Shown here: one piece after another, positions 2,807-56,881 of the stretch
How positions within the stretch are numbered: the stretch's first letter is position 1
Layout of the letters: each line of letters opens with the position of its first letter
Assembly (NCBI RefSeq): GCF_000003605.2
Contig: NW_003122411.1
Span: 638,633 to 695,513 of the forward strand
Direction of reading: 5' to 3'
Origin: Saccoglossus kowalevskii
Lineage: Eukaryota; Hemichordata; Enteropneusta; Harrimaniidae
DNA: 56,881 bases
The notes under the pieces: generated by a model
What the model saw: only the letters and a program-made list of their open reading frames with translations
Told to the model about the DNA's origin: nothing
The model's database searches: none
Program-made: the position numbers and the translations under genes

Positions 2807-2807
2807 T

Positions 2808-11266: not shown

Positions 11267-12481
11267 ATGATGCTCTCTCCAAAGGCCAGTTACCAGGCGG
11301 CTCCAGCGACCACGATGAGTACCATGGGCAGTATGGCGGCTATTAACCCATCGGTGCAGTATAGTTCTCAGATGCCTGGCAGTATGAACTCAATTAATTC
11401 CTACTCTATGTCTCCGATGAACAACATGGGTAGCATGAACATGAACGGCATGAACAGTATGAACGGTATGTCTCCAATGAACAGTATGAACATGAACACC
11501 ATGGGTACGATGAACCAGGTAATGTCTACTTCACCTGCCATGAACATGGAGCTAGCCCGTGCAAGTTCACTAGCAAATCAAATGAATGCGGTGAATCGCG
11601 TACGGACGGACAACAAGACCTATCGCCGATCGTACACGCACGCTAAACCACCGTATTCGTATATTTCGCTAATAACCATGGCCATACAAAGCTCACCGAA
11701 CAAAATGGTAACGCTTAGTGATATATATCAGTTCATCATGGACCTGTTTCCATTCTACAGACAGAATCAGCAACGGTGGCAAAATTCAATACGACATAGT
11801 CTGTCTTTTAACGATTGTTTCTTGAAAGTGCCACGCACACCCGACCGCCCGGGAAAAGGTAGCTTCTGGACGCTGCACCCAGACTCAGGCAATATGTTCG
11901 AGAACGGATGCTATCTTCGTCGCCAGAAACGTTTCAAATGTCCGAAGAGGGAAGCCCAAAGAGTAACGCAGAGAGACGGCAGGACGGACGAGCACGGCGA
12001 GGAGACGACAGGTAGCACAGGATCACCGCACATGACGGACACCACAACAGCTCAACAACAGCAAACGCAACAACAAATGCCACAACCAAAAGTGGAACCT
12101 CATACAATGTCACCTCCACCACCTAACAGCATCCAAAGCATCACCTCAATGTCGAACAACGTGCCGACGTCATTAGCAATGGCAAGACCAATCCCACAAC
12201 AGGCAGCGTACGTCTCAGGAATGGGAGCACACATGCTAGGGCCAGGTCAGCACCCTTCATTTAACCATCCTTTCTCCATTACCAACATAATGTCGCCGGC
12301 CGAGCATGGTAAAGCTTACGAAGCTATGGGCTACCCTGGCTACAATACCATGAGTCCCATTTCCAGCATGCCAAAGAGTTCCATGGAACAAACCGGTTAC
12401 ACCAATCTTACAACCAGCGAACCATCGTACAGTCAACTTGGTACACAACAAAATCCGATCCCAAACTCCATAGCTCACTGA
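11267..12481 (+). CDS. foxA: FoxA (HNF3-class) forkhead transcription factor, single exon
   Basis: Encodes 404 residues of a nuclear DNA-binding protein. The family acts as pioneer factors for endoderm, foregut/pharynx and axial mesoderm genes. The forkhead domain spans about residues 123-228, opening [11 protein letters not shown]. It includes the recognition helix [15 protein letters not shown] (173-187), wing 1 ([11 protein letters not shown]) and the FoxA signature [17 protein letters not shown] (209-225). The N-terminal third (33-95) is rich in Met, Asn and Ser. A Gln-rich run lies at 262-271 and Pro-rich MSPPPP at 281-286. The C-terminal FoxA region II is present as HPFSITNIM (334-342), an eh1-like Groucho/TLE-binding motif, followed by [11 protein letters not shown] as in vertebrate region II/III. 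Start choice: ATG ATG with A at -3 and an in-frame TGA at 11225-11227. The frame is uninterrupted. FoxA assignment is secure; the exact orthologue name is not. Confidence 0.97.
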
Positions 12482-13200
12482 ACGAACACTGATATTTGCA
12501 TGCATGTACGTGTAACAATAATCTTCCGTATCTTTTGTACTTTTATGGAAATGTAGGGGCCAGATTTTATTCAAGTGCACCAATGTATATATATAAATAT
12601 AAAACACCTTTCTTTTTCTTTGTAAATTTCTTCTTTATTTTAATAACTCGCTATTTTTTGTTGTTTGCCTCTGTTCATGGTAAAACTAGGGAACGGCTCA
12701 CTCGGAAACTTTAATGCGAACAAACGAACTGATCTATTTGTTTTTTTGGCTTTTACATTTCAGAGAGTTACTATGATCCACCTCTGCTCAGATGGTAGCT
12801 TCCAGATTCCAGAGAAAATTTATCCCTTTAAAAGACTATGTGTGAGACTGAACGAAACTGACATCTCGTCCACGGTGTTAAGTTTCAAATGTTTATTTCA
12901 AAACAGAGAGAGAGAGGAGAGAAAAAAAACATTGAAGCGTTAGTCGTTCCGGCGCTGTAGATATTTCAATTTTTTTCTACATTTTCTCCCGTCTCAGACA
13001 TGAAGACAATTTATTTGTTACACCCTTTTTACGGGAAAGTCGTCCTTCAGCCGATGTTTTTGTCTTTATTTATTTAATATTGTTATATTTTGTTAGTCTT
13101 TTAAACTTTTGTCTATATATATTTTAGATATAGTATGTTTAGCGATTGTGATTGGGAGGCGTCGATTGTACGTGTAAACAGTTCGTTTTCGCTAACTCAC
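12482..13200 (+). other. probable FoxA 3' untranslated region and flank
   Basis: AT-rich, T-run-rich DNA immediately after the FoxA stop, without coding potential. No clean AATAAA was seen close to the stop. Variant signals such as TATAAATATAAAA (about 12591-12603) and ATTTATTT-type AU-rich elements (about 13067-13078) are present. The true polyadenylation site cannot be fixed by eye. Confidence 0.35.
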
Positions 13201-16200
13201 GGTTCGTTCACACCACAACAAAACTCGCATGGTTTCTAGTCGGCGGCGACTCGCTAAATGCACATTGCTGATACTGATCTGTGGAGAACCCCACTATGTG
13301 CCATTCCAGTCAATCCATTATTGTATTTATTTTTTAAAAAAAAGTAATTTTGGCTGTTTTTTTATTTTTATTCAGTCAGTTCCGGGGCAATCAATACGTT
13401 TATTTTTACTGATTTTCAATTTTCTACCCTTTAAAAAATTTGGGCCAACCTCTCGATGTTAGTCATTTGAGTCTGCGCTTCGTGGTGGTTTTACGTTTTT
13501 ATAGAAAAAATAGAAAGGTGTATATTTCTCTTTTATCTTTGAACTTTTCGCAAAAAAGGGGTCTGTAAAAAAAATGTGCCAAATGTAGCCCAATTTCAGT
13601 TTTAAAGGCGACATACTTTTTAAAACAGTGTTGAAAAAAAATCGTCTTGTTCCTTTTAAACATCTTTGATAAATTAAAGTTTCACAGGTATCAACTTTTA
13701 TTTCTTTGCAACGTCTTGCTTGTGTGTGTGATTGTACGATGAATGTTGACTCACCCAGTTGAAATGTAACACACAATGTACCACATGCCCACCATCCTGA
13801 GATTTCGAAATTTACACAAAATACATGAGACGATGGCGGGAAACTACATCCCCCGCCCTCATATGAAATCATTTCTGGTACAGCATGAGTTTATGCTTTG
13901 TAATCCCTCCCCCATGTTTGTTTTAGTTGACATTTTCCCTCTGACAGCATTGATGAAAAGCGGTGACAATAATCCGTCTCCATCGACCGTTGCTAGGCAG
14001 GGTGGTGGTTACTGCGTATTCTTTATGATATCGTAGCTGATATCAACATTAATGATTAACTCGGGCCTGTAAAGACAAATCGCATTTCGCCATCTCAGAT
14101 CAGCCGATAAAATTAAGTGAGAACTGACCCCCCATAGCCTTCGGTGTGATGGTGAATGATAAGAACGACTGACGTCATGCCAATTTTGTCCACGAGGTGG
14201 TTGTGGCCGACCGATGTAGCGAGCAGGTTTATTTGAGTATATGTGTCCCCGCTGAAAAAAAGCTTAGCGATCGCTGTTTTCTAAATGAGGATTTCTTGCA
14301 CCTTTGTTAAGTGCTTCACGGTTCCGCGTATAATTCGACACGAGTTACCTTTTCAGGGGCCCATTCTCGCAACGAAAATGCAAACAAATTCAATCTTCGA
14401 GTGTAAATATATACAAATGTTGTACATGTACTTATTCAAGGGTCGGGGTGCTAGAATGGGAACCAGCCAAGCTAGGTATTATGGTTACACGAAAGCGGTG
14501 TGTTGTTTCAAATTCATCGATCTCGGAACAACGCCGTCGCGATGTAGTTTTAAAGACGTTCTCCGAATTGCTGCGCTTGGTATGATTTTTTCCCCTGTCC
14601 GTTTCCTTCCAGAGTACAAGTATTACACCCCGAATCTTCACAGTAATATAATTCTGGGAATCACAAATATGTATGTAGGTGTTCGTTCAAACACGGCCGT
14701 TGAACAGTTATTTTCTATTATTCAACGGTGTTGAACTGCAGGGGAACTCGCCAGGGATCGCGACGCTTATTGCCAAATAAAATAGGTTAATTGGGAAGAT
14801 ATTGGACTGAAAAACACGTCTTGGAATTTGCCAATATATACCGGCAAATTTGCCTTGCGGGAGAATACAATGAAATCCCGAGAATATAACTCTGAACGGA
14901 AACGACACAAATGAGAACTAATGTGTAATTTCCACACCGACTCGCATGGCGTGTTAGACTGCATATTCGGATGCAAAGTGTATGTTTTTAAACAGGTAGT
15001 CAGATATAGTAGAACCGAATACACGTCTATCGGTGCCTGTGATCACTAAGTCCGCATTTAAAAACACAAAATGCTGACAAATCGCCTTTTCCTGTCCTTG
15101 TAGTGTAAAATTACCCTCGGTCCTATTAAATGCACACCGCGGCATTTCCCACAAACAAAAGAGTACACAGTCGCTCGTTCATTGCCCCTTAATATTTCAA
15201 TAAAAACGGGGGATCTTGATGTCACTTGGCAGTGGTGTCAATTTCATGACGTACCCTATAGTAAAAAAAAACGACGAATAATCGAGTGAAAACAGGGTGT
15301 ATTTTAACCTGACCGGTATAACTGACAATTAAGTGTGTGTTTTTTTTTCTCAAAATATGGTAAATTTTCACGACAATTTCAATGGACTGAAATCAACAAA
15401 TGAAATCAACTCGCAATACTGAAAAAAAACTATGGGAATTACGCTTGCGAACACTATTTCTTTCTGCTATAAAAAAAACACTTGACTTGGTTTAAAATTA
15501 GCATAGAGGGAAACACATTGTAAATATTTGGTACGGCTATCAATAGGTCAAAGGTCGAACTCCATTCGTGTGTTCATTGCAATCGAACCATATTTCACAA
15601 GTAACGCAACACACCTGTGTAGAACACTTGATGACTTTAATTTCTTAATTTGTCAGAACCACGGTGACACGCTGTTTTACATACCTGGTCGATTTCAAAA
15701 CCACAACATGAAATAAGCCGTTTATTCTCTCTTCTTGCTCTCTGCAACTCACCGTACTTTCGACAAGAAGGAGAGGGGTGGGGCTCACTATCAACACGAC
15801 GGGGTGTACAGTACTCAAATCGCTTCAAATCGACTCTTTCCGTGTGGTCACCGAACCCGCCAAAAAAAGACGCAGTTGTTTGTACCGAGCAACTATATTA
15901 GTAAACGATGTCGTTGTCGTTATTATTATTATTTCTTTGTACCAATAAAACACTATATGCAAGAATATTATACACATACGATGCCCGTCGTTGGACTCCG
16001 TACACGGAACATAAATCGGCCCGGCCCGTCTCAGTTAGTCGTCGAGTATCTACGCTGCGTTGTAAACATTCATGCCGCGAAAGGGATAAACCATGCAACT
16101 TTGGCTCCGATCGTTGAGGTTGTAAATATGTATGAGGCGGATAATAGTATTTGCTACATGGCGTTAGCGTTTATTCCCATTGAGTTTATTGAATCTAAGG

Positions 16201-16272
16201 CTGATACGAATATAATGGCAGGCATGAAACCAGATTTTACGAAAACAAAACAAAATAACATTAAATAAAAAT

Positions 16273-16274
<2 letters not shown>

Positions 16275-16326
<52 letters not shown>
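16275..16326. repeat. (AT)n microsatellite
   Basis: Uninterrupted AT dinucleotide run of about 26 units. It starts a few bases after an AATAAA. Likely polymorphic. Confidence 0.95.
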
Positions 16327-16328
<2 letters not shown>

Positions 16329-17042
16329 TGTGTACTACTGCAACAGTTTCATTCAATTTCGTGCCTCATATGAATGTCTAACACTAATTTTGGATTCGAG
16401 TTTCAATCGCGACCGCACACATTTTGAAAATTGTACTGTTATGAAATTAACATCATACTTGCGAAAATTGGTAGGTCTAATTATAGGTGTTAATATTTTG
16501 CATGTACTGCGCAAGTCGGATCTGTTTCATATTGGGCGCTTGACAAAAATTATGCCCACTGAACTCGTATTAAATAAAACAATATTTATGTTTGCTTATT
16601 TCTCAAATTGTTTACATTCTAAATATATGTACATGTTGTTTAAATGTATAATATATACTATATATATACCTTGATGCGTGAGGTTTATTTAACGACGTGC
16701 ATTCTCTAACAACTCCAGTGCGTACTAATAGAATATTCCGGGGTATATGAGGTAATCATTAGCATAAATGTGTGTCGGCCCATGCCATCACTTATAATAG
16801 CACAGTAAATATCCCCGACAAGTTGTGTTTTTTTGTTATCGGAGACAAATAATCAAACTTCGCTATAAGTACGCTTTGAAGGACGGAGTCATCGGTATCG
16901 CACCTCGCTGTTTATCTACCGTGACTGTAGTGTTTCGGCAACCCCGCTGTTGTTTTTATTGGTGGGCGGCGGAGATGTCTTTATTCTAAAAAGTCGCGAA
17001 AAGTAAACTTACAAATTAGACGGTAAATGGCTCTCAATAAAA

Positions 17043-17063
17043 CAATTAGGGACTTCCTAATTG
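17043..17063. promoter_or_regulatory. inverted homeodomain-type sites
   Basis: CAATTAGG and CCTAATTG form perfect 8-bp inverted arms around a 5-bp spacer. Each arm holds the ATTA core bound by homeodomain proteins. Palindromic spacing of this kind suits a dimer, but there is no direct evidence of function. Confidence 0.25.
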
Positions 17064-18847
17064 TCCTTTTTCACGAATGCTCGGCCACCGACGTCGTCTT
17101 GACAGTCTAGAAACAATGGAGTTCTATAGAAAAAATGAACTGAAACCGCTATCTATTATTCTGAACACGTTGGACAACAATTGTTTTTTATGTCTGTGGT
17201 TTTTTTGGGACCACGGTGCTAAAGACTTGGCTATTATTCGTACACACCCAACTGTGACCTCCGTGATTTGAAAAAAAAAATCACTCGCGTGGCTATATCT
17301 GCCATTTTAAACTTGCATCAGTTAGACTTGAAACAAAAACTTCTTCTTGCAAATGAGCGCCGATAGAAGTTTTAATGATGACGTCCCGCAATTTATACTT
17401 TAGTACGTCCTAAAAAAGTTTGACAAACTATTACAAGACAAAATACATACAAAAAGAACGTTTCGTGGTTTATATAGTGGTGTTACATATCACATCCCGT
17501 CGATACTTTGGAACACCGCCATTGCCCTTGTATGCATGTTGGTGAATTGTTGTTTTCGATTTTTTTTAAGAATAAGGCGACCCCGGAAAAGAGCATGATA
17601 TACATCATCACGCGAGGCTTATGACACGGGCACATCTCAGTTGTTGTGTCGATGACCAGTATAACTACCCAATATTTTATTTGTGTTCGCTTCCCGATAA
17701 GCGACATATGCTAACTGTGGCTTATCGTCAACGTGACCTTTTCCACTAATTGTATTTGTTTTGTTCTTATAAATCGAGCAATATTGCCGATCTCCATCCC
17801 TGGAGCCTGAGAACCTATTCCGTACCCTGTCCTGCTGGGTCACCTGGCCAAGAAATACCTACCGCCTTTCATACGAGGTCCGTTGTATTTACGCGTATGG
17901 AGTGTATGCCCCCAATAAATTACCAGGTGTCCATTTTACTCCAGGGGGGCGTTCTACCTTCACATCACGTCAGTGCCAGTGATTTATCTGGCATCTGGCA
18001 CATTGCTGTACACTTCTTTATCCCCGTTAAAACAACCCCCTTTCGTCAAAAATATGCAGTACGACCCTTTTATGCGATGACTCATCGAAGTTCAATGAAC
18101 TCTAAAAGTATCCCCCCCTCCCCTCTCTCCTCTCATCACACTTCAAGTGGCTTGAGGAAATGACCATATGCGTTGTTTTTATTAGTACCGGTAGTATGGC
18201 TTTCAACGGTACACGCCGAAGTTCCGCCTTCCGTTTCAAAGCTCGCTAAGCGCATACGAAAAACGCCCACGGAAAGATGGAAGGAATCACTTGACAACCT
18301 GGGATATCCACACCATGACTGGGCGTATATCGGTGACAGGTGTATAGCGAGTGTATTGTGCGTCACCCGTGTTCGCACCCGTTGACAGGTTGTATCTGAA
18401 GCGACAAAGTTATGCCCTTCGTGATATCGGAGAGTAGCTACGGATAAACCGACCCAGTTGCCCCGTTCAGACACCGGTCACTGACTCTGAGAGTAGACGT
18501 TAAGAAAATAATACGGAGCTCATATTTATTGCCGTTTGGCTATGTTATAAAAACAAAACTTCACACATGTAATCGTTATCCATAGTTATCTATACACATA
18601 TAGGAAAAATAGAGTGGCGTTTAACATTTGTTGTTTGTGATCATCTTTTTCTAGTATTCCTAAACTGTGCGTGTTCGTATCACCTTTATCCCCCCCCCCC
18701 GTAAAGCGAACGCGAACAGCAACGATACCGTTAACATGTCCGTGAGAAAACATTGGATATGACGAATTTCACTATCGGGGTAACAACACACGATAACAAA
18801 CGAGATGAGTAAATAGATACGACAAGGTGTGTAAACTATGAGAGGCA

Positions 18848-18863
18848 GAGAGAGAGAGAGAGA
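18848..18863. repeat. (AG)n microsatellite
   Basis: Short AG dinucleotide run of about eight units. Confidence 0.85.
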
Positions 18864-21800
18864 AAAAAGTCACACATCGCGGCCCAGGTGTCATGCCAAC
18901 AAACTTGACCGAATATACCACATGAACGTGACAGAATAAGAAAGCCCTCATAATACAGAGAACCGAATTCCCAGGTAAAACGCTCGGGGTATTCAGCATC
19001 AGCAAACACGGGACAATCGAAAATACTTCGCGAACAATAAGTTCTACCGTACTGTATGCAAATTCTAAAGTGTCAAATGTCTCAAGTTACATCCAACAGT
19101 GCTCCGGCCTATCACTGACTCCCTACAAAGAACACACACGTTGTACCCGTGTCATCGAGGGGAGGGCAGTGACGTGATTCTGACAATAGATTCCCGACAA
19201 CGTTTTTTCCCCTTTATTGAAATGAACAATATTGAAATATACTCATGAACAGGGTTTTTTTCCAATACAGCCATCACGTACAGATGTTACTTTACAATCG
19301 CTATGTTTACTTTTGTTATCACAATATTAAAATGGAATAATTCACGATTTTATTGTTGGGGGGATGTCGGGTGGGGGTGGGGGTCAAAATATGAGATGAA
19401 AAAAAATCCCTCTGCCAACATTTTTAGACTTTTTAATTTTTAAATTCAATATAGTTGAATGTGTAATAACGATAATAGCATGTGTTCAGCTACCGGCCCC
19501 ATCTGATCTGTCTGTAAACCGCGCTTAAGTGGCTTCTCACAACGACAATTTCAGGCCGAATTTGCCTTCAGTGCAAATATTACATTTCTATCGGTGTTGT
19601 TTTTCAAACCCCCTCTATCAGGGTATTTTTCTTTCTTGACTAGCCACTCCAGAAGCCAGCTCAAATAGTCAAGCTTTTTTTTTCGTTGAGTAGGCGATGA
19701 GAAGTTTTATTTCGCAGCAAAGTCAACAGTATAAGACGGGAACTCAAATAAAAAATGTAATATATAACGAAGTGCCAGTTTCCATTTGTTTTAGACGCAA
19801 ACTTCAAATATTAGGTCGAAAGTGTTTATAGAACCGTCGGCGTTTGCACAGTTGCACCAGTCGCGCCCTGTAGTCGGCCGTGGAAAGAGCCGCTGCTCGT
19901 TCCAGGTTGTCAGAACGAGTATTTTTTTTGGTTATCGCCACGGAACCCGCCCGGTAAAAAAAAACTTCGAAGTACTGGTTGGCGTGGGGGAAGCGGTCTA
20001 TTGAGCTGCCTCGATCATCTGGTATGTTAAGAATGGTTACGTGCCCGATCTGCGTTGTTGTGTGATTCAAATGAACCAGCACTGACCAGCCTTATTTAGT
20101 TTCCCCTCTTCTCACGCCTATTCTCCGGCCATTCTTGACGAGGAGTTCACGGCCAGGCGCCTGTACGCTTGCCGCATCACTAAGAAAACTCAGTACAAGG
20201 TAGGGATACCATTGAAAGAGATGATTTTAGATTTTGATGGGGTTCGTGTATTCGCGTCTCAAAGTGGACAAAAGGGTTGCCTGCATGCCCGGGACACTCA
20301 CCTAATACACAACAAATTAAGATACAATACGTCTTTTCTGACACCGTAAAAATAATATAATTTTAACAGCGTCATAAGCAGGCCAACCAGCTATTAAAAA
20401 CAACCGCTAATTTGGGGCGCATTTGCTCATATGTGTTCATTCAATTCGTCGTCACCAACCGGTACATTTTTCGGTCGTCAAGTAAACGATGTGAACGACG
20501 TGCCGATCTAGTCCACACCATGGCGCCGTCTGCTATTTCCTGTACCAGGTCATCAACATCGGACCCCCTAAAAACATGTGTTTCTTTTTTTATATCACAA
20601 ATTCAAATTTATATATTCCAACCACATATATACGATATATTGGTTTGACTAAAGATCGGTATATTGCAATATTACAATACATTATTTTTCAAACTTATTA
20701 ATTTTTTCTGGATTGTACACGAAGAAAAAGGTGACATTGTTATTAAAAAACAACTTATCGCGCCAACAGCTACGACCAATCGCGTATTAATTGGTTGAAA
20801 ATCGCATAACGGATGTGACAGCGAGCAATAACCATCACACAACTCGGCGTCTGCTTGACAGCAATATTTAACATTAGACATGGAATTATATTCTGTAATT
20901 TTTTCATATATATAATTCGTTCACTCACAGTCATCCGGCAACGACCTTTGTTCCTAACAAACCGATAAATCATGAAAATTGTAATCGACAATCCATAAAC
21001 GAACTCCATAATTCACATGTAGATTTCTCTGCATTTAATGATATGTGTCATTCTGTCTGAGTTTCACGGCAGATATTTTTTTATTTATTTCTGACGCAAT
21101 CGTTATTCTGTTAATGGTAAAAGAAGTGACGAAACTTCGCCGTGAAGAATAATATTCGTTTTAAATTAAGCCGGATTATCGGTGACAATTTGTATCACGA
21201 GTTCAACTTAATTATACAAAAGAGAAACTTGATACAAACACCGATTTTTTAAAATGTCATAAAACACTAAGCTATAGGGGATGAAAACAAAAATGAGAAT
21301 AACACCCATATTTTCTCCCAATAAATTTTGTCAGCTAAAATAATTAATTTTCATTACATCTGTACAATAATTATACAATTTGTCAGTTGAGTTGGCATTC
21401 CAATCATTTTCTCGAATTAAACTCGGGGTAAAATAACTGGAAGGGGGAATAGAAGTGTCACAAAGATAGTCAGCTGAATAAATTACAGTAAAAAAATATA
21501 ATAACCGTTACAGACAACCGTCTTGACGATGAGGATACACATGCCTGGTGCGCTTAACGTCATATTAAGAATTCATAACTCCACAAATAAAATAGACGCC
21601 TCTGAATACATTTAAGACTAACAAATTAATCGAGTTTTAATACGGCTGTTATTTTCTAATGATAAACTGCGGCGGTGGGTACGGCTATGTACAATTGGAA
21701 GGACGGTCATAGATTCCACATTGGCGGGGTTCACTGTACCGGGCATTTGACCCAGTATGGAGCTTAAATAAGCTCAATAGGTCAGTCATCGATTTTGCAG

Positions 21801-24382
21801 ATAATTCGTTGTATTCACGCTGCAGGCTTGGACCATTGGGAGATCAATAAATTTGATAATTCCGTTAACCGTGTCCGTATTCGGCACTGTTCTATCATCG
21901 GGATTTGTTGTTTTTAGTTGTGAAGTTTTTCTGCCAATGTTACATCGGCTTTCGGGTGTGTGCTGGTTCCCTTTGGCATTGTTTTCCATTTGTTCGGATA
22001 ATTCTTCATTCCACTAAATACGTTCAGAGTGAGTTGGAAAGACGTTTTATTATATTCTCAGAGGGTGACTGTTCTCACACCAGTTTACTGTAACGTCATG
22101 GACAGCTGGCTGCCCGATTGTGCTCTTTGCAGACGAGAAAGAAAACAAGTGCATTTAGGACGAGTTTTTCTTCTTTCTTTTAAAAAAACAACAACCATGT
22201 CTGGAATGTCGAAACCTTTTAGAGTACTCTAAATTTTATTTTTTTTCTATGCATTAGAATGAAAACACAGGCAAAACAAAGCGCGAGTTTTTGAAAATGT
22301 ACTATCCGCCATCTTTGCTCAAAAAAGCAGTACACAATCGAACTCATTCAGCGGTGGGTTTGGGTGATGTTGTGGTGTGTAGAATTCTGCTAATTTCGAC
22401 TGAAGCAATATCGATCTAATAACTTTCAGTTCCCAGGAAAAAATACGTGCCCGAGGCGTTTTTTCCAAAGCCGTCTCATGTTCTATGCGGCCCGGCATAG
22501 GTGTGTGCGTCGTACGAACGAACGAAAAAGAGCGGAAAACACGAAGGTAAAACATGCATTTCACATATTTGCCAGGCGAACTAAACAAATTCTTGACCCA
22601 CTGCGAACAGGTTACGATATTAAAGAGCGATAAAATGTACAAAAATAAACCCAAATTACAATTTACATGATTTAGCCCGTTTCTAGCAAGTACGAGTGAA
22701 TACTCGTCCAGTATTTTGCTGAGCATCGGTTACAAAAACACGTCACCCGGTATAAATAATGGCTCGTGTTTTGAAACTGGCGTTCTAACTTTACGCTGTT
22801 CTTTCGGTTATTAAATTATTGCCCAGATTTTGTTATATAGAAATTTGTGATATTTGCCGATCATTGTGGGGACTTAATAAGATCTAAACTGATGAAACGG
22901 GTAGGGCTTTTAATAGAAGGAATTTTCTAAATGAAATTAAGACATTTTTAATAAGTGTATTACGGCGTACAACGTGTCTAATTCATGAGTCACCGATAAG
23001 CTGGGATTTTAGGTAATATTTGATCAAACCAAGATGGTGAGGAGATAAGGGAATTAGAGTTTGTGATCTAGTTAGAGAACAAAAATAGACGAATTGAATA
23101 TTTAATGTGACGAACACAGTCATGCTCATAACATGGCGACACGACGGGTTTCGGCTTCATGGCCAGTCCTTCATTGTGAGTATTTCGCCAAGGCGAAATT
23201 CCGCGACGATGACGACCTCCAGAAAAGACGTTTTTTGTGTCGGTTAGGTGTACCTCAAAGGGATAATTTTTTGTTAGCATCGACACGTGATTTGGATGAA
23301 GATAATCCACGCAATTAAAGCGTAAATACAGGTTGTTGTTTTTGGGGATAGGATTACGTTAATATGCATTGTTCGAACGTTTCTTAAAAATCAGGAGATA
23401 ATTATAAAATGTTTTGACTTTGAACAGATAAAATAGTAAAGTTTAAAATATATGTAATTACATTTAACGCCAAGATTTGAAACAACAACAACAAAAAAGG
23501 AACCCTACAACAACAAACAGAGCTATAACTTGATGTCTTGATAGGGAGATAATTTTACACCCCAAACAATCCAAGTTCGTGTGTTTGTTTGTTGTATGCA
23601 ATACTCGTCGTCTTATTATTAGAACCACTTCTTCTAGTAACCGTGTTAGAACGGTTTAAAAGCTAAGATATGTTTGTGGTGGTTCTGTAAGAATCAATTC
23701 GCGGAGAATGTGTACATTTCACGTTATTGACACGGAGGCTGCTGATATGAAATATACAAGGCAGTGTGGCAGTCGTGGATTTGTGTAAATTTACACCTGT
23801 TGTTTTCTGAAGCACAACATCAACAAAAACTTCACGTTAACCGTAACACGACCTCAAAAGTTACGGTTCAGTCGACAATTTCGTGTTGTAGAAAGGCGCT
23901 GTTATGTATAAACGCTATATACAACGAATAATGACAACGTAAAACAGTCTGAACAACGTCCACACGGTGAACAAGAAACCCAATCAACCGGTGCAGTGAA
24001 AACCCTTATATATTTTTCATCGATTTTTCAACATGGATGCGTTTAGTTTTTTAAAGCTCGCAGTTTCAGACAAGCGTTTTTTTGCAAGACACGTAGTGTG
24101 TGTTCTTTGCATTATTAACGCTCGAGCTACCGCGACAACAAAGCTAAGTAAGTACGGCCCGCGCTTCAACAGCCTCCATGTTCCGATGTCGTCCCACCAT
24201 TTACACTCGTGGACGGCATTTATATGTATAAAGGCAAACCCTGTCCTTGTTGTTTTAACAAAGGATATTTACACACCATCATTTGATTTAGAAATTCAGC
24301 CAATTCAACGAATTCGTGCCAAATCATGAGAAAAATGCGGACATGCTCAGGAGTGCACTGACATATTAATTTCCCAATGAAG

Positions 24383-24386
<4 letters not shown>

Positions 24387-24413
<27 letters not shown>
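24387..24413. repeat. poly(A) tract
   Basis: Run of 27 A. No upstream retroposed gene or SINE body with a target-site duplication was recognised beside it, so it is recorded only as a homopolymer. Confidence 0.9.
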
Positions 24414-26590
24414 CTGACCGGAAACACGCAGGAGAAAAAAATTCGACTTATACAGAAGGCCGAATTGACATATTCAATGATGACAATATCAGTTTTCTTC
24501 TTATTATTCTTCTAATAAGGGAGAAAAACCGTACCCACATGAGTCCGATATTTGTTTTCATATAATAAAAAAATATTATCTAAATATGTTCGCCAGCCGA
24601 AACAAATACTTGGCAGAAATTCCAGATCAAATGCAGATCTACTGAGATGTTTCACCACCTCACCAATACGATATCTGTACCAACAAACCAAACAAATAAA
24701 ATAAAATATAATTTACATCGTTTTCCCGGGACTGTCAAACCCCGTGAAGGCAACGATGACCTTTCTCGCAGCTATTTAGTTAGTAAACTCTTTCTTTTTT
24801 TTTATCAAAGACTAAAATACAAGATATTATAAACAACAAACATTTGTACTCATTATCATAGTAGGAAAAATATCAGATTCAATGTGAAAATGAATATCTA
24901 AAAGTTGCTCTCATTTATATTTTTCGTTTAATAACGATCATGACAATCACCCAGTAGTATACTTGGATATCAATTATTAGTTACAACATGCCTTGCTATG
25001 AAGTTTCTAGATTAATATCGCCCAAACCCCTCAAGCTGCTGTCAACGAATAAGTTTGTTTTGGTTCTTGAGGTATTTATTTTGTTTGCTTCAAGCAATCG
25101 TAAGGTTCTACTTCCGGTAAAAAATATATATATTACTTTGTACGCAGAATAAGAATAGAAATAAAAAAAAAAAACTTGCTGTGCAAATATATTAACAAAT
25201 TCGGGCTAAAGTCCGGGGAAACCTAGGGTTATATTGACAAACCTGATCGTTGTGTGTGTAAAAAAAAATCTTAATGTGTATAAACTTCTAAACAGTTTTA
25301 AATCAAGTGGATCAACCTGTGCCACATAGAAACGTTCTTCTCTATGTTCGTGAATTTTCGTTCGTAGGTATACCTTTATATATGCAATATAGACGTCTAT
25401 AACCACTGTCAAGCCGTGTGAAATACATTTCTAGAAGAAGTGTTGCATTTCGTGGGTATATCCCCTGCTTGCGTGCTTATCAGGAGAAAAACAAACATGC
25501 CGCTTGCAGACTGTGTATGCTCTGTTTCTTCACTGTATACACAGAGTTATTCATTCCTTGCTTGAAATGTACACACTCGTACGGTTAGCCTGCCATTAGA
25601 ATTCCGCCATTCGACGGACTAAGACCATGCTTTTACCTCGAGTTCTGCCAGTTTCGGGTAAGTTCTTCATCACGAATCTGATCGTTTTATTCTCAAGTTG
25701 TACGGGGGTTTCTCGGTAACGCGGTAGCGATGGGACACGTGCTCCGCGCTGTAACGGGCAGGTGCAGGGCTTCGCATTAAGCAAAAAAAGCAGGCAACGC
25801 CCGAAGCCTGCGTGTGCGTGGCCTGATCTGTATGTCTTCGACGAGGACCGATACGTAGATTTACCACTCAACACCAGGCCCAAAACCACCAGTTTGTCAA
25901 ATAAACATATTATGGCAAGTTTTCGATTAAGAAAAAAGCAGCAAAACTGCAATAAATAACGAGACTATGTTCGATGGAAGTGCGAAACGCTCCATTTACG
26001 TCACTGACTGATACAGGTGTGTCCATTTTTTTTTCTCACCACAAGCTCAACAAACGTCAACGAATTCCAGTTCGCGGTGTCCAATTTCAATTGGTTTTAG
26101 TTAGCATTTTCCTCGGCCTTAACCGCCAGTTTCCGCATCGGTGTATTTCGCCGGGCGTATACCCCAGTTTAAGTAAGTGAGACAATGCCATGTTTTCGAT
26201 GACCGCGTTACTGTATAGCATTTAAAACGAGTGCGGGGAGAAAACATGGCGGCTCTCTGGAAGGCAACTCGAACACATATCCACCCTACCCTGTCTTCTG
26301 TGTAAATAAGGAAAGAAAACAAAATCTAATACACCTTAAAAGAAGACGACAGAGCAGGCGTGTCAAGTTTAATTTCCTCTCCCGGTGTAGGATATGTTTA
26401 CCGTGTAATATCGAAGGGAAAATGAAGACGACCTGCCAGTCGGAGCATTTTTAAGACAGTCACGTAGTTTTCTAAGCAGGACACACAGGTGTTTCATTGA
26501 GAGCGGCAGCTTCAAACGAAAAAAACTGTCGTCTGTCAAACAAAGAACATTCTCAGTCTTCAGCGTGTTTGGTCTTAAATACAGAACTTC

Positions 26591-41939: not shown

Positions 41940-42060
41940 CGCATGCGCTGTAACTTCGAATTAGAAGTACGTACCAAGAATGCAAAGTGAATGGGAATGA
42001 GCTCGCCGCATGCGGCGGACGGGCACGAGTGAGGATTGGCGTTATTGCAGTTCACATGTG
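41940..42060. promoter_or_regulatory. CpG-dense patch with NRF1-like site
   Basis: Contains CGCATGCGC (about 41941-41949), close to the NRF1 palindrome GCGCATGCGC. It also has the palindrome CCGCATGCGG near 42008 and a GC-rich tract CAGCGGCGGGGTGGGAGGG. Sequences like this mark CpG-type promoters in animals. No exon with a convincing start could be linked to it on either strand. Confidence 0.2.
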
Positions 42061-42420
42061 CAGCGGCGGGGTGGGAGGGTTTCTGGGCGTCGATTGATAT
42101 ATTATATTATATTATCTGAGCATACAATCGATACTTCGTGACATTCAGCCGGTTTCGATTAGGTTTCTTCATTCAACCATTGTCTACCAAGCCCGCCCGG
42201 TATTCAGAATCGCTCATATTTCTCTCAATCCTCGGCAAACAGTGACAGGAGAAAGTTTCTCATCCGTATATTATCAAACACGTGCGCTTTACTGTGCAAT
42301 GTAATTACTGTTCATTTAGTGGTCTGCGAAAAAAACACAAAAAAACGACCGGATCATTGGCGGCTATACGTGACTAAAGTGATGTGAAATCGCTACATTC
42401 GCGGTTTTCTGACCCACGGA

Positions 42421-42440
42421 ATCAAATCAAATCAAATCAA
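42421..42440. repeat. (ATCAA)4 microsatellite
   Basis: Four perfect ATCAA units. Confidence 0.85.
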
Positions 42441-42837
42441 ATTTAATAAAGAAATAAGCAGGTAATTGTATTTAAAGTTTTTATTCTTCTGCCCCCACTT
42501 GCCGTTAATAACTTTAAATGAGCCCAGTGATTTAGTGTCACAACAAACATGGCTGTTGTTCTCATTCCTTGCGACGTTTCGAATCGAGAAATCTAAGAGA
42601 GCGCACAAAGGGGCTATAGTTTCGCCCTCCCGGTTCTGTAAGTTGTTTTCTCCTTTTATAGTTAGAAGAGAATAAGAGAGTTCAGTCCATTGAACGAGTC
42701 TTCTTGTTATACAAAACGGTGTCTGAATACAGCACCCATATTAAGTACAATTCATTCGACAAATTGCATTCATGTTCGGCATGTTTTTATTGTTCACGGC
42801 ATCCCCGGCCGATTCGCTTCGATGACTCCATCTCTTC

Positions 42838-42862
42838 AAAAAAAAAAAAAAAAAAAAAAAAA
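42838..42862. repeat. poly(A) tract
   Basis: Run of about 25 A. No retroposed body recognised beside it. Confidence 0.9.
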
Positions 42863-45657
42863 GCCGAAGTCGCATGAAACCACTTTACCGGCTCTCCGCT
42901 CCTATGAGGCTGCACAATTTCAAAGATGTCAGATTTAAATTGCTTATCTTTTTCTTCGGGAGTCAGCGTATACGACAGTTGAGCCGGAGCCCTCTAAGCT
43001 TACACCTTCTTTGAGACGCTTTCTTAAATACTGTGTGCGTAAACACTTAATATATTTGCCAGCACTGGCCATCCGTTGACCCCGCTGGCTAGTACATCGT
43101 TCCATGACCCTTCTCGCTTACCATGCACACACACTACTCTGCCACTCCATCCACTCGCCCTCTCCGAGTCTCTTATCGCATGAATGGGTGATTCTGTATA
43201 GCACACTTCATCGTGTAACACTACTACCCATAGCCCCCCCCTCCATCCCCCGGTCGGAGATCCAACAGGTGGTCGCGAGCAAGAGTTGTAAAAACACACA
43301 AGGAGAACCAATCCTGGCATTGATTGGCCGGCCATAACAAGATTTAGCCGCGAGGCATTCGATAGAAGAGACGACACTTAAAAACGGACGTCACAGGGAA
43401 GGATGAATTCCATTCTAAACCTTACAGTGCCCCCTTTTTTTCATTGAATCACGAGCAAAGATGCGTACGAACAACGCTTTGCTGTAAAGCATGGTCTGAA
43501 AAAACAACAACTTTGAAACAACATTCCCTCGGGGTGAAAGCATAGAAGCGAATTAACGCTCGAAAAACGCCAATTTCACGGCCATGCAAGCACAGTTTTT
43601 TGTCTAATTTGACTGGCATATTTACATTGAATGTCTCGTGAGGTCGACCAATTACGTCGGTGAAGTTTGACGATGAATGACTTGCTTTTTAAGCGCTCTT
43701 CACATGACAGTTTTCAGGCGATAAAACCAAGACTTGAATAACTCTTTTTGATTTAAAATATACACGATATCAAAATACGGTCCCGTTAACTAATTATAAA
43801 CAAAATCAGGTCTATATACTTTCATGATGCAAGAAGATGCAAGAAACCGCGAACTCGCATATATAAATGTCAAAGTTAAAAACAGAGTCTTTTTTGAATG
43901 CAATGAACCGATAAAACGAAATTCAAGTACCGATGTTTCATTGTATGTGTGTGCCCGTTCTAATCAAACGCTGTTAGCTCTAAGCGGCGTCGGATCATGC
44001 GGTGAGGATGGATCAAAGCGAGGCTCATTAGCATAAAGTTTAATTAAAGCGAGCACCCCTCGCTTCGTCTATGCGTGTGTAACGTTTCAATTCATCGTTG
44101 TATAAAAGATAAGTTTTATTTATAGTGTAGAAAATAAGTAAGCGAAAGCGTTTATTTTACGCAATTATTTCAGACTTGGCCGGTGTTCGAAATCGTGACA
44201 AAAACATTCATTAAAAGAATCCAATAACAGCAAAACTCATCAAAACTTATACGAGCATGCTTATTTCACCGATGATTATTTCTCTAATAAAAATAACATT
44301 ATAGCCATCTATAGGTGAACGGGTAACGGCTGAGTATTTGGCGAAACGCTCTAATAAAGAAAAGTCGAGATGATTACGCCAAAAAAGACGAAGAAGTCTC
44401 ACATAAAGAATACGTTTTGCATTACTTTAGAGAACCAACATGGTTGTCAGGGTTGACAACTCTATAAGTATTACCATTCCAAGAAAAGGGAATATTTTTT
44501 AAGAGAAACAAAAAGTAAACACGATATAAGAGGTTTAAGTTAACTGTATACACTGCTTCGGGGCATTCTGCTGTCTAAAGTTGCATTTCCCGGCCGAGTC
44601 TCCTCACTTATCGGGGTTCTGTGATTGAAATACCAGTACATTTATAATACTTGTGATCTATGCCTCATTTCAAATGACAAAGTTCCAGATCATCGGTTGA
44701 AAAAAAGTTACTTGTTCCAAAAACGATCGAAGACAAAGTATGAGACTAAGTTAGGAATGAACAAAATTGCATTCTGCACAACCGATACTCTCTAAGCAGC
44801 CATTTTGCAATTTACCTGACAATGCATGTCGCGTAAAATAATTTAATAACTGGAAAAGTTAGCCACATAGAATTAGCAAAATCGGAAAGAAAAAAACTTG
44901 AAAAGATTGACACCGATTGGATTTCCCAAAATAACTTGATAATGACACTCACCGCACGTATTTGCATTTAAATTAGGTTACGATGCCTACTATTACCAAG
45001 GAAACGAAAAGAAGACAAGTACACAAACAGACATGAGCAAGCAAACCTTAGATAAACACAAGGGAGGTGGATAATAGTTCAAGTCTGTAGCGAAGAAAAT
45101 TTTGCTCGATTAATTTGGTTGTATATGCTAGAACTGTCCCATAAAATGTTGTTGATAAAAAGTTTTGCTGTGAGTATTCAATCCATATCAGGACTACGAT
45201 GGAATTGGTGATACTACTGTCACGGAGTCACATGAGGTGGCATTTATCGCGATTGGAAATATCGATAACATCTTCGTGTGATTATTTACAGAATCTATCG
45301 ATTTTTTTGAAGTGATCGTAAAATCGAAAGACTATTTAAGACACGTTTTTTCATTGTTTCATCAATATTTTAATGACGTTAAAAAGTAAATTTTGTATTT
45401 CGTCAGTTTGTTCTACGCTCGTGTAAATACCGTAGAAATGGAAATCAAGTTCATGGAAAAAAACGCGAGGGAATCCTTGTGCGCGGGCTTCGCTGTACAG
45501 CGCAACAACACGACTTGCGAGTCTAAATACACAAACGCCCGGAAGTCGAACGATTTAGGGGGACAAATCTAGTGCGTTCGATCACTACTATTAGACGCAG
45601 GCACACATACAAATATACTGTATACATAAACAGGTCACTTGCTCAACAAATCGTCAT

Positions 45658-45707
45658 NNNNNNNNNNNNNNNNNNNNNNNNNNNNNNNNNNNNNNNNNNN
45701 NNNNNNN
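45658..45707. other. assembly gap (50 N)
   Basis: Exactly 50 N, a round number that usually denotes a scaffold gap of estimated or unknown size. Distances across it, including the FoxA-MIPOL1 spacing, are therefore approximate. Confidence 0.98.
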
Positions 45708-46644
45708 TATTTCTGAACAGAATATCAAATAATTAAAAACAAAACAAAACAAAGAAATGGACATAGCTAAAACCACTATTGTATATTACCCACAAATAAT
45801 CTTCTAAATTGCATAGCTGTATACTATTCGAAACGAAACGCGAAGACACACAAGTAGACAATACGTTATATGAAACTTGATCACACCCCAGCCAACTGTC
45901 CAAACGAATCGCAAAGAATCAGCGGATAACAGTTGTCATTATATTTTCAGTAAGCTGCTTTTATATATATATATTTCATTTTTTTAAATATATATTCGCC
46001 ACCATTCAAATTGAAGAGAATGTTTCTACCAATTTTTCCCAACGATGCTCAACATAAATAAACAAAGTTTGCGAACAAATTTAATGAAAGGTATTTAATA
46101 TTGAGAAACAAAACATCCCGTGCAGATCAAATTAAACTCGCAGCTTTTTCCCTCTTATCAATTTGGTGGCGAAATTGCAATATACAGCCTGGATTCAATA
46201 TTGTAGCTATATACATTGCATTCTCATATAACACTAAACAAACCAAGTCTCCATTGTGATGCGAGTAGTGACCGGGATGTCAGCTGTCGACGCTAATACG
46301 AAATGATGACATCTATTAAGCACGATAGCGAGATGAACATTTCATCAATTCAACAGGCACGTCTCGGCCCACGCTGTCGGATTTGTCCTTTATTTTCTCC
46401 TCCCTGTCAGTGTTTACCTGGCCGCGTATCAAGTTACAGGGTAATTATTAGATTGGGAAGACTTGAACTTCTTATGTGTCGCATCACAGCTGGAAATAAC
46501 AAAAGCTGAGATGAAATGCAAACAAGGCATTTAAATATTACCATATTCTAGTACAAATTAAAGTGAAAAGAAAAAAAAAAACTCGACCTTCCTCTCGGAT
46601 CCCATCCACTCCCTTGTGTGGTTTGACTTTATCTCTTACATTGA

Positions 46645-46678
46645 ATGACGCATGCGCACGTCATGTCAATATATAAAA
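46645..46678 (+). promoter_or_regulatory. candidate core promoter: CRE-like/NRF1-like palindrome plus TATA
   Basis: ATGACG (46645-46650) and CGTCAT (46659-46664) flank a CATGCGCA NRF1-like core, giving a near-palindrome. TATATAAAA follows at 46670-46678. A start would fall near 46700. About 75 nt later comes ATG-AAT directly followed by a perfect donor GTAAGT (46781-46786). The arrangement looks like a real promoter and short first exon whose first intron would contain the minisatellite. No second exon is established. Confidence 0.3.
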
Positions 46679-46910
46679 CTGTGTACACGGAACAATTCGA
46701 ATGTCATTTCTATTAAACTAGTCATATTTACATGCAGTCCACTGACTGTACGAGTAATAATTATTTAGACAATCATGAATGTAAGTGGCGACCATGTTTA
46801 TGGAATGAACGTTTAGTATAACATCACACCTTGGTATTGCACCTTGTGCCAGTGATGCCCCCAATCTGTCAGTATTTAGTGGGTAATACTATCTCACCGT
46901 AATGAGTGAT

Positions 46911-48007
46911 TATCCCATGTCTGTAGTAACCCAAGTGGGCGAGTATCCCATGTCTGTAGTAACCCAGGGGGGGGGGGTGAGTATCCCATGTCTGTAGTAA
47001 CCTAGGTGGGCGAGTATCCCATGTCTGTAGTAACCCAGGGGGGGGGTTAGTATCCCATGTCTGTAGTAACCTAGGTGGGCGAGTATCCCATGTCTGTAGT
47101 AACCCAGGTGGGCGAGTATCCCATGTCTGTAGTAACCTAGGTGGGCGATTATCCCATGTCTGTAGTAACCCAGGTGGGCGAGTATCCCATGTCTGTAGTA
47201 ACCTAGGTGGGCGAGTATCCCATGTCTGTAGTAACCCAGGTGGGCGAGTATCCCATGTCTGCAGTAACCCAGGTGGGCGAGTATCCCATGTCTGTAGTAA
47301 CCCAGGTGGGCGAGTATCCCATGTCTGTAGTAACCTAGGTGGGCGAGTATCCCATGTCTGTAGTAACCCAGGTGGGCGAGTATCCCTTGTCTGCAGTAAC
47401 CCAGGTGGGTGAGCATCTCATGTCTGTAGTGACCCTGGTTGGAGATTATCCCATGTCTGTAGTAACCCAGGTGGGCGAGTATCCCATGTCTGTAGTAACC
47501 CAGGTGGGCGAGTATCCCATGTCTGTAGTAACCTAGGTGGGCGAGTATCCCATGTCTGTAGTAACCCAGGTGGGCGAGTATCCCATGTCTGTAGTAACCC
47601 AGGTGGGCGAGTATCCCATGTCTGTAGTAACCTAGGTGGGCGAGTATCCCATGTCTGTAGTAACCCAGGTGGGCGAGTATCCCATGTCTGTAGTAACCCA
47701 GATGGGCGAGTATCCCATGTCTGTAGTAACCCAGGTGAGCGAGTATCCCATGTCTGTAGTAACCTAGGTGGGCGAGTATCCCATGTCTGTAGTAACCCAG
47801 GTGGGCGAGTATCCCATGTCTGCAGTAACCCAGGTGGGCGAGTATCCCATGTCTGTAGTAACCCAGGTGGGCGAGTATCCCATGTCTGTAGTAACCTAGG
47901 TGGGCGAGTATCCCATGTCTGTAGTAACCCAGGTGGGCGAGTATCCCATGTCTGCAGTAACCCAGGTGGGTGAGCATCTCATGTCTGTAGTGACCCTGGT
48001 TGGAGAT
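46911..48007. repeat. 33-bp minisatellite, about 33 units
   Basis: Tandem array of a 33-bp unit reading TATCCCATGTCTGTAGTAAC followed by CCAGGTGGGCGAG. Units start at 46911, 46944, then every 33 bp from 47084 onward. Two units near the left end are lengthened to 38 and 36 bp by G-run expansion. About nine units carry CCTAGG instead of CCCAGG, four carry CTGCAG instead of CTGTAG, and two divergent units (47414 and 47975) share the same set of changes. Because 33 is a multiple of three, long open frames run through it on the minus strand with an 11-residue period. That is a by-product of the period, not evidence of a gene. Confidence 0.97.
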
Positions 48008-48240
48008 TATCCCATGTCATGGTAGCCCTGGTGGGTGATTATCCCAGGCAAGTAGTGGCCCTGGTTGGTGATTATCCATGTCTGTAGTGACTCTGCTGGG
48101 TGATTATCCAATGCCAGTCATTAACTTTTGTGCTATGGTGTTAGTAGTGACCAAAACGGTGGGTGTTTATCCCATATTAGTGGTGACCTTGGTGGGTGTT
48201 CAACCCACGCCAGTCAGTGACCTCAACGGTGGGTGTTTGG
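48008..48240. repeat. degenerate tail of the minisatellite
   Basis: About seven decayed units with the same TATCC...GTGACC...GGTGGGTG skeleton but many substitutions and length changes (31-40 bp). They look older than the homogeneous array to their left. This suggests the array started here and expanded leftward. Confidence 0.8.
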
Positions 48241-50590
48241 AATATAGTGATAGCTAGTTTTTCTGTATTCACCTAAGAATTCACATAGTTGGTATATCTT
48301 TAATACATTTGTTAGATATTTCAGTCAAATACAAACTGTAGCATGAAATGCATCAACTTTCTTTACCACCCATGGAAATCAATATAAAACATTGATAATA
48401 ATAGTTGGTAAAATGGAAAAAAAAGTGTGTCTTACTTTTTCCTGGACCAAAACTACTACATTAGGTAAGTGCAGGAATAAATTCAACATTTCATACATTA
48501 AAAGGCACACTCACTTTTCTTGTGAATTGATGATTTTTGAGTTGTGCATATCCAAAATTACGTTATTTCCAATGGAAGTTCGTCGTGACTCACATCAATG
48601 ATTTCACACATGTTCTAAGAATGTTCGTATCAGTGTATGGCAAATCCATCCCTCTTGTCACACGCAATGGCAGGAATGTTCTAATTGGTCAGAAAGAGCT
48701 ATTAATATTTTAGATATCTGTGCTGATAGGATAGCATCACAGTCATTGCTTAGAGCTCGTTTGCATTTTACGTAAATGAACAATGTATTTCTTCTATACA
48801 GTGACTAAGTTGCACTGGACCCCTATTGAACAGAAGGTTGATGTGCGATGACTTCAGCACTACCGGTACAATGGAAATATGGTACATTTTTGGGGAAATT
48901 ATTATATTTCACACTTTTATTACAAATTTACAGAAATATTTTTTTTTCAAGGTATTACAAATTTTTCTTGTTGGGGCATTTCACTCGGACACAAACAAAT
49001 ATCGACAAGTACATATAATGGATTGAAAAATATACCATGATGTCTAACTATGCAATACAGGACATGTAAAGTCCCTTCTGGCATTGAACTTGAGCATGAT
49101 GAAAAAAAAAGCCATTTATATTGAAATGGGAACGTTTTTTGGTAGAGAAAAGGACAGATGTACTGGACTTATCAGGTCATCGTAATAAAAAAATGTGCGT
49201 TCTTCTTTAATTCTTGAGAGGTAGACATGGAAACACATTTTTTTTAAAGGGCAGTGATCATTGCAATGTTTATCATAGGTTCATAATTTTTTCTCCCAAA
49301 ATTTGAGTGCAAAAATTATGCTTATTTTTATGAGTTTTTCCGTGATTACTTATTGGCTGAGATCTTGATTAAAATTTGGGAAGCAATATGAAAATTGAAA
49401 CGTGTGTTTTATTTAGTGAAAGGTGACAAATGGTACCTTTGGGTTTTGGACATATTTAGTGGGAACATTTTGAAAAACTCTCTGCTTATGTACAAAAAAC
49501 TGCAGTGAAATTCACGCTACAAACAAATTTCATCCCATTCCTCTCTCCCAAAAAAAGTATTAAAAAACAAAACAAATAAACAATTCTAAATAAGGTAATG
49601 TTTTTTTTTTAGTTTCCATGATTGTAAAAATTTGTTGATGTACAAAATATTTCAATTAATGTACAAAGGTGATTCTTTACAGTGTTTATACAAAAACACT
49701 GCAATAACTTACAAATCAAAAATAGTTACATAATTTGGTTATTAGCATTAGATTAGCATACCAGAATAAATACGCACAGTATAAAAACAAGTCGACTTTA
49801 CAGACATAATTCGTCACACCCCCCCCCCCCTAAAAAAATCTGTTTCAAATCACACGAACCAGGCTGCTCTGCTCCAATCACTCGTCAGCGGTATATGCTA
49901 CAATCAACGATATCAGTTTGTTTCATTACGACCGTAACTTCAGCTATTAAATCGGATGCTATGTAGAAACATACACATCTGAATAAATATCAGTATTATT
50001 TGATTATTTCAATGCTTAATACACTGGCATATCAATTTTCAAACAGTGACATTTAATATACTTCCGCAACCCGCCCTCCAATACTGTTAAATAATTAAAA
50101 TATATGTGTAATTTATCCATATTCATAAAAAAAGAATATTACTAAGCACCTTGTATTGCAATCATTGCAATGACATTGCATTTACCATAGTTTTCATGCC
50201 AAATACCCCATTAAAAAAGAAATTAAAATATGTATGAATGAAAAAATGTTATGTATCTTGTTGGCAGATATTTTTTGCTATTTCTGAAAGGTTTAATAAG
50301 TTAATAACACACATAGTGTGGTGGTATATATATTCAGATGTTGATAAAAATCTGAACAAGTTTGAGTCATTTTTCCATAATAAGGTTTCCAATATTCAAC
50401 AATTATTTAAAAAAAAAAACAAATAAAAAATTAATGATAAAAAAAAATGATGCTGTTAAAAAAAAAATAATGATGAGGAAATAATAGTCATTAGATTCAT
50501 GATTATATTAATATCATTACATAAATTTAAAATGCTGTTGAAATTTAAAATGCTGTTTCCTGAATAACTTTAATATTGAAAGGAACTCAC
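48241..50590. other. AT-rich, CpG-poor region downstream of MIPOL1
   Basis: Low-complexity AT-rich sequence with few CpGs (about eight between 49021 and 49800). It may include MIPOL1 3' untranslated or read-through sequence. A locally CpG-richer minus-strand patch at 49880-49960 has a short open frame following an AG, but its splice phase does not fit the neighbouring exons. Nothing was identified with confidence. Confidence 0.45.
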
Positions 50591-50734
50591 GCTGGTATTT
50601 TCTACTACTTCACCCACATGATTGATGCATAACATGATTCCACCCGAGGTTTTCCCCGTGCCAGGTGAGATTCTCTGGACATCGAATCTGCTAATCGTTC
50701 TGCCATCAGCAACATCGAAAAAGGCACTGCTCAT
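50591..50734 (-). CDS. speculative exon of 48 codons, unknown protein
   Basis: Minus-strand ATG at 50734 opens 48 codons (MSSAFFDVADGRTISRFDVQ at the start). They end in phase 0 at a consensus donor, AGC|GTGAGT. The frame would otherwise close six codons later. The block keeps several CpGs in CpG-poor surroundings, as constrained exons do. It begins 28 nt beyond the MIPOL1 stop, too close for an ordinary independent promoter. It may be a downstream ORF in the MIPOL1 3' UTR, an alternative MIPOL1 end or chance. The plus strand has a competing short frame (ATG 50633, donor CCAG|GTGAGA at 50673). The protein is not recognised. Confidence 0.25.
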
Positions 50735-50740
50735 TTTTTT

Positions 50741-50746
50741 TTTATT
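50741..50746 (-). terminator. possible MIPOL1 polyadenylation signal
   Basis: AATAAA on the minus strand, 16 nt beyond the MIPOL1 stop. It is followed by an A run, so it may be fortuitous. If used, the 3' UTR would be extremely short. Confidence 0.25.
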
Positions 50747-50762
50747 TGAATCAGCATCATCT

Positions 50763-50829
50763 TCAGCTTACAATCTTTGGAGTTCCTTCAGCTAGCTTCT
50801 TTCGTAGTACATTAACAAGTCTTTCCAAT
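50763..50829 (-). CDS. mipol1: MIPOL1 last coding exon
   Basis: A strong acceptor (long TTTTCTTTTCTTTTTTTT tract, then ACAG) precedes a 67-nt coding stretch. Joined to the AA left by the upstream exon, it reads K, then LERLVNVLRKK, LAEGTPKIVS and stop. Vertebrate MIPOL1 ends, as I know it, with LERLVDVLRKK, a short Gly/Thr-rich linker and a stop at the same place. Phase and length agree exactly with the upstream exon (56159-56389). The heptad Leu/Val pattern continues the coiled coil. This marks the 3' coding end, about 38 kb beyond FoxA and pointing toward it. Confidence 0.93.
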
Positions 50830-56158: not shown

Positions 56159-56389
56159 TTTTCAGTTTTTCCCGCAGCTTCTTTCTGAGACTGGAGGGAC
56201 TGTTGATACTGTGTCATTAATGCATTTCTTTCAGCCAGGGCCTGCTGGAGATGCGCAGCCAGATCGTTTTGGTCCTTCTGTGATTTCACTAAAAACTCGT
56301 CTCTGACTTTGATCTCATCTTCAAAACTTCCTAATGTGTTGTTGAACTGATCTCGTAGACTCTGCTCCTGGGACAACGACTTGTGAAGA
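56159..56389 (-). CDS. mipol1: MIPOL1 penultimate coding exon (231 nt)
   Basis: Encodes 76 full codons of coiled coil, starting LHKSLSQEQSLRDQFNNTL and containing LAAHLQQALAERNAL before the end AGKTE. Vertebrate MIPOL1 has, at the corresponding place, LHKSLSQE, DQFN-TL and ATQLQQALTER, so identity is clear. The acceptor is ACAG (AG at 56391-56390) after a T-rich tract, entering in phase 2 with T completing a Ser codon. The donor is GAAAA|GTGAGT. MIPOL1 is a largely helical cytoplasmic/nuclear protein of poorly defined molecular role, known from a human mirror-image polydactyly breakpoint. There is no frameshift or stop. The gene runs off the right edge of the window. Confidence 0.95.
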
Positions 56390-56875
56390 CTGTAGAAGAA
56401 AAGTTTTAAAAAAAATATTATTTTATTGCATTCAAAAACGACATTATGACCCCCTCCCCCCTCCTGTCAACTAATTTTATTTACATTAATCAAATTAATT
56501 AAACCACTGTTGTAAGTTTCAGTTGATTGGAAATAGATTTATGCTATCAATGAATGATTTTATATAATTTCTAGAGGTAAACAAACAAACAAGCAGCCTC
56601 TCGGCTGAGATAGCTCCGCTGTTAGCAATGCACATTTCAGTTAAAGAACAGAAGATATCATTAGAAAATGAACAATATGCATAGTATCAATGCAATGGGA
56701 CTTGCTGTTTTCAACAAGAATTCAAAAATATCATTTTTCACCATAAATGATTGTGGTTTTTAACAAGAAGAAAATATCACTTTTTACCAGAAATGACAAA
56801 AATATTCACCAAAATTAGAGAATTAAAGATATCATTACAAAATGAATAAATCTGAGAGAGGTCCACATGTAGTAC

Positions 56876-56881
56876 CTATAT
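56876..56881 (-). CDS. mipol1: MIPOL1 upstream exon, last 6 nt (truncated by window edge)
   Basis: The window's last bases read ATATAG|GTACTA on the minus strand. Joined to the next exon they give Tyr-Ser-LHKS, matching the YS-LHKS junction of vertebrate MIPOL1 in both residues and phase. The intervening intron would be 486 bp (56390-56875). The donor is only moderate and six bases are little evidence, so this rests on the phase and residue match. Confidence 0.6.
   Translation of the reverse strand: M

Follow-up and report, generated by a model that had tools for sequence, protein, structure and literature searches.

The pharyngeal gene cluster of deuterostomes has been described in the order xrn2, nkx2.1, nkx2.2, msx, cnga, pax1/9, slc25a21, mipol1, foxa and egln3, with mipol1–foxa and pax1/9–slc25a21 reported as bilaterian pairs and their blocks as having been united in deuterostomes (PMC11175523). 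The FoxA–MIPOL1 pair is reported from various protostomes (PMC11175523, PMC7978419), and, according to the latter report, the cluster itself may be bilaterian. For Xenoturbella, a single region is reported to hold Foxa, Egln, Mipol1 and also Slc25a21 (PMC11521371), the sea urchin cluster is reported to lie in three parts (PMC11175523), and an altered order is described for a sea cucumber (PMC5638244). Against this background, we analyzed a stretch of 56,881 nucleotides (hereinafter the window) from the hemichordate Saccoglossus kowalevskii, together with its flanks, in which an initial annotation made from the letters alone had recognized the gut-patterning gene FoxA together with MIPOL1 and taken them for one end of this cluster. 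Our analysis reveals the gene order FoxA (plus strand), MIPOL1 (minus strand) and slc25A21 (plus strand, in tandem), and we consider it highly probable (roughly 0.9), judging from sequence comparisons, that this order corresponds to the pharyngeal-type neighborhood already known, at its FoxA end. The case for membership is strong for these three genes; as one compact cluster it is doubtful.

Gene Content and Order

The window corresponds to positions 638633–695513 of a contig of 759,085 bp (NW_003122411.1, here C1493) in a genome of 572 Mb and 4830 contigs, and we read that contig from 539601 to its right end at 759085. This stretch holds seven runs of N, including one of 5281 N that begins at the right edge of the window (695514–700794). 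The right flank was covered solely by tblastn with four unverified human protein sequences (MIPOL1, SLC25A21, EGLN3 and PAX9) and by a codon-usage scan.

The FoxA frame is open from 11228 to 12481, and from its first ATG runs for 404 codons and a stop free of introns. The encoded protein contains Forkhead (E = 2.6e-37) and Forkhead_N (9.2e-14) domains, both above the Pfam cut-off, and an HNF_C region that at 20.7 bits scores below the cut-off of 25. Its best matches among solved structures are HNF3-beta and HNF3-alpha. A forkhead domain nearest to HNF3 points to an HNF3-type FoxA gene.

On the opposite strand, the last two coding exons of MIPOL1 (Table 1) have both acceptor and donor in place and compatible splice phases. 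When spliced, they yield a C-terminus of 99 amino acids that aligns without gaps over 98 residues to the human MIPOL1 query with a score of 225; the best of 1000 shuffles scored 78 and the reversed sequence 50. Across the contig stretch, tblastn with the same query gave seven collinear matches, all on the minus strand, of which we accepted those at 689.4, 694.8–695.0, 708.0, 723.6, 724.7 and 725.7 kb: three are significant (E 8.6e-14, 2.2e-8 and 6.4e-8) and three are weak (E 0.068, 0.090 and 0.11), the latter with splice signals visible by eye. The exon at 708.0 kb apparently uses a GC donor. The seventh match (754327–754386, E 0.32), which would nest slc25A21 within MIPOL1, was discarded as its splice sites were unconvincing. 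The gene thus runs past the right edge of the window to at least 725.7 kb; the codon-usage scan prolongs its first MIPOL1-like exon to 726.2 kb and offers a possible additional candidate exon at 733.0–733.2 kb. The conserved coiled-coil C-terminus and the collinear upstream exons together argue for its identification as MIPOL1. The last intron carries a 102-bp direct duplication at 52730–52935.

The next gene recognized after MIPOL1, and head to head with it, is by its sequence matches slc25A21, where the initial annotation had expected it and had held that genes foreign to the cluster would speak against its proposal. It is present in two tandem copies on the plus strand (741290–745981 and 748885–753110), each with seven exon matches that reach 81% and 84% identity, respectively, to the human query protein, while residues 1–23 of that protein found no match in either copy by tblastn. 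A few weak matches are attributable to the internal repeat of the carrier protein. By eye, 13 of the 14 exon cores are flanked by a usual donor or acceptor, with not all boundaries fixed. Between the copies, the seven exon pieces are 81–88% identical in DNA and none of the introns can be aligned; therefore, the duplication is not recent. The sequence downstream of the first copy (746.1–746.4 kb) also resembles that downstream of the second (755.3–755.5 kb), at 74–89%. We found no published account of this tandem pair in a limited literature search, and it may already have been described.

Apart from its reliance on the assembly joins, the gene order is established for this genome. The FoxA–MIPOL1 pair alone is no mark of the deuterostome cluster because it has been reported from protostomes; on the published accounts cited above, the MIPOL1–slc25A21 junction is the better marker.

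Table 1. Positions in the window of the features discussed in the text.
Feature	Position	Strand	Basis or remark
FoxA coding sequence, single open frame including stop	11267..12481	+	Open reading frame, Pfam, structure matches
Forkhead DNA-binding domain	11645..11902	+	Pfam; contig C1493:650277-650534
Interval between FoxA and MIPOL1 stops, 38,281 bp	12482..50762		Pfam scans, no domain above cut-off
50-N scaffold gap	45658..45707		Between FoxA and MIPOL1
33-bp minisatellite, 36 copies	46911..48113		Repeat search
MIPOL1 final coding exon with stop	50763..50829	-	Splice sites, alignment
MIPOL1 penultimate coding exon	56159..56389	-	Splice sites, alignment

The Interval between FoxA and MIPOL1

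The two genes lie tail to tail, and the initial estimate of about 38 kb between their stops is confirmed by the interval given in Table 1. Its statement that no secure gene lies between them holds at the level of Pfam domains: six-frame scans (stops as X, E ≤ 0.1) returned no family above cut-off in 1–9999 or 12401–52099. The rest of the window toward its right edge, 52100–56881, is mostly MIPOL1 intron. In the interval, three sub-threshold rows (CFAP95, CMC4 and Mucin-like) were set aside, the last of these falling in the minisatellite, where several frames are open owing to the 33-bp period and nothing looks like a gene. A tRNA search using the bacterial code and a search of Rfam at the gathering score likewise gave no match in the interval. 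Fox motifs are slightly more numerous there than expected (29 observed vs 19.4, z 2.2).

Extent of the Cluster and Points against It

Several observations weigh against assigning the locus to the pharyngeal neighborhood, one being that the human query sequences are unverified. At the level of the assembly, the join between FoxA and MIPOL1 depends on scaffolding across the 50-N gap. In the 219 kb that we read, two more runs of N are likewise exactly 50 long, so the gap is probably of fixed size. Since this assembly join is the sole link between the two genes, their adjacency might be a scaffolding error. We hold this to be very improbable, as the order and orientation equal those of the published conserved pair, an unlikely product of a random join, and as slc25A21 comes next, as predicted.

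The same side of the balance holds the whereabouts of the remaining cluster genes, in that Pax1/9, nkx2.1, nkx2.2 and a probable msxlx all lie on contigs other than C1493. A genome-wide paired-box search gave 17 matches, the seven strongest spread over five contigs, and none of the 17 on C1493 or on C4338, the contig of the nkx2 genes. Pax1/9 lies at C2045:36281–36649 (92% to PAX9), on a contig of 50,086 bp in which no clear coding signal was found upstream of it at 17001–35000; two weak PAX9 matches on C1493 (E 0.73 and 3.3) were judged chance. The expectation of slc25A21 and pax1/9 beyond the right edge is hence borne out for slc25A21 (741.3–753.1 kb), and C1493 ends, 6 kb after slc25A21, before any pax1/9 is reached. 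The homeodomain search gave at least 95 matches from the 150 of 209 candidates scored, and among the matches listed none is on C1493 or C2045. Of these, 20 stretches were read and 19 proved readable, two of them NK2-type and both on C4338 (221162 and 268884); by sequence resemblance we take these to be nkx2.1 and nkx2.2. C4338 also has, at 155360, a homeodomain that resembles msxlx and presumably belongs to that gene, so that the three stand together in the published order. Past msxlx, 155 kb of C4338 is without a paired-box match, which speaks against a single tight cluster, and the assembly shows none. In addition, all five XRN_N matches, to xrn1 or xrn2, are on C3161 and none on C4338, in a search in which short exons can be missed. 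Lastly, and bearing on FoxA as the end of the cluster, egln3, the published ancestral end gene, has no match to the human query left of the window in 539601–638632 (about 99 kb, of which about 37 kb is N). Weak EGLN3 matches at 708106–708276 (E 0.034) and 674377–674481 (E 0.70) were judged chance. The codon-usage scan of the left flank picked out a lysine-rich coding stretch at 548–564 kb and a subtilase-like exon at 589.5 kb, both named by eye.

These placements would suit a history in which FoxA–MIPOL1–slc25A21 was retained while the larger pharyngeal cluster dispersed, as in the sea urchin with its reported three parts; the occurrence of the FoxA–MIPOL1 pair alone in various protostomes points the same way. 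Such a dispersal is unlikely, although of all the alternatives it deserves the most weight. Against it, slc25A21 after MIPOL1 unites two blocks reported as separate in protostomes (PMC11175523), and the walk on the Pax1/9 side was stopped by the end of the contig and not by foreign genes.

The interval itself furnishes the last of the adverse points: the Otx motif is under-represented (z −3.1), and clusters of Fox, Tcf, GATA, Bra and Otx motifs do not go beyond shuffles (best window 8; five resampled sequences peaked at 6, 6, 9, 7 and 7), so that no regulatory element is established there.

Possible Basis of the Linkage

By analogy with published work on other animals, we find an enhancer-based reason for the linkage reasonably probable. 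Elements of Pax1/9 and FoxA have been reported in introns of slc25A21 and mipol1 (PMC5882950); topologically associating domains (TADs) of echinoderms are reported to contain the Foxa and Pax1/9 blocks, with sea urchin foxa elements tested (PMC13317027); FOXA1 elements are described in a TAD common to MIPOL1 and TTC6 (PMC6978390); and a FOXMIND enhancer has been described (PMC7815845). Briefly, we advance the following mechanism. The FoxA enhancers would sit in the 38-kb interval, in the MIPOL1 introns or in both, and those of Pax1/9 in or near slc25A21. Breakage of the order would then part promoters from their enhancers, and hence the genes would stay linked.

Alternatively, the genes might have remained neighbors passively, by chance or through a low rate of rearrangement and without shared regulation, a view favored by the fact that no regulatory signal is established in this single sequence. 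It is improbable in light of the conservation of the linkage over phyla and of the published enhancers and TADs around foxa. Returning to the enhancer-based account, the old local duplication of slc25A21 might have doubled or divided the regulatory landscape of Pax1/9 with the block left intact, duplication being tolerated where separation was not; we offer this as a conjecture with little better odds than passive linkage.

The present locus adds one further genome that retains the published order of FoxA, MIPOL1 and slc25A21, and it bears out a prediction made from raw sequence alone. It leaves the published picture unchanged. The linkage had been published before, as had the reason proposed for it, and the locus is ordinary apart from the duplication of slc25A21. 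The two copies could offer a natural experiment on where in the bystander gene regulatory DNA resides.

Forkhead and Homeodomain Repeats Elsewhere in the Genome

The genome-wide forkhead matches included a distinct set of arrays, with 87 of 119 matches on six contigs (C3072, C112, C4502, C2214, C434 and C3756), many of them regularly spaced about 1.94 kb apart and some being pieces of one copy. In a 4.6-kb stretch (C3072:12801–17400) the repeat units are 96.7–97.8% identical and contain forkhead frames of 265 and 227 amino acids. The nearest solved structure of the amplified frame is FOXL2. From their sequence, these arrays suggest that a transcription-factor gene has multiplied to dozens of copies; for FoxQ2, the record gene number is given as 13 (PMC12828049). 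Separately, four homeodomain matches lie within 2.4 kb at C4455:13120–15526, three of them within open frames of 1098 amino acids.

Comparison with Known Systems

With the deuterostome pharyngeal gene cluster, the locus has in common the published succession of FoxA, MIPOL1 and slc25A21. It differs in its tandem slc25A21 and in having Pax1/9 and the nkx2.1–nkx2.2–msxlx group on separate contigs. In the human FOXA1–MIPOL1–SLC25A21–PAX9 locus, FOXA1 and MIPOL1 stand tail to tail and MIPOL1 and SLC25A21 head to head, the same orientations as here. Measured from the FoxA start through the second slc25A21 copy, the hemichordate genes occupy about 103 kb, the human span being longer; a further difference is that the FoxA frame here is intron-free from its ATG. 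The sea urchin foxa locus has regulatory modules reported in the flanking intergenic regions (PMC13317027), a feature that the FoxA of the window may share. In the sea urchin, the block of foxa and pax1/9 is reported to be split, whereas in this hemichordate slc25A21 remains beside MIPOL1.

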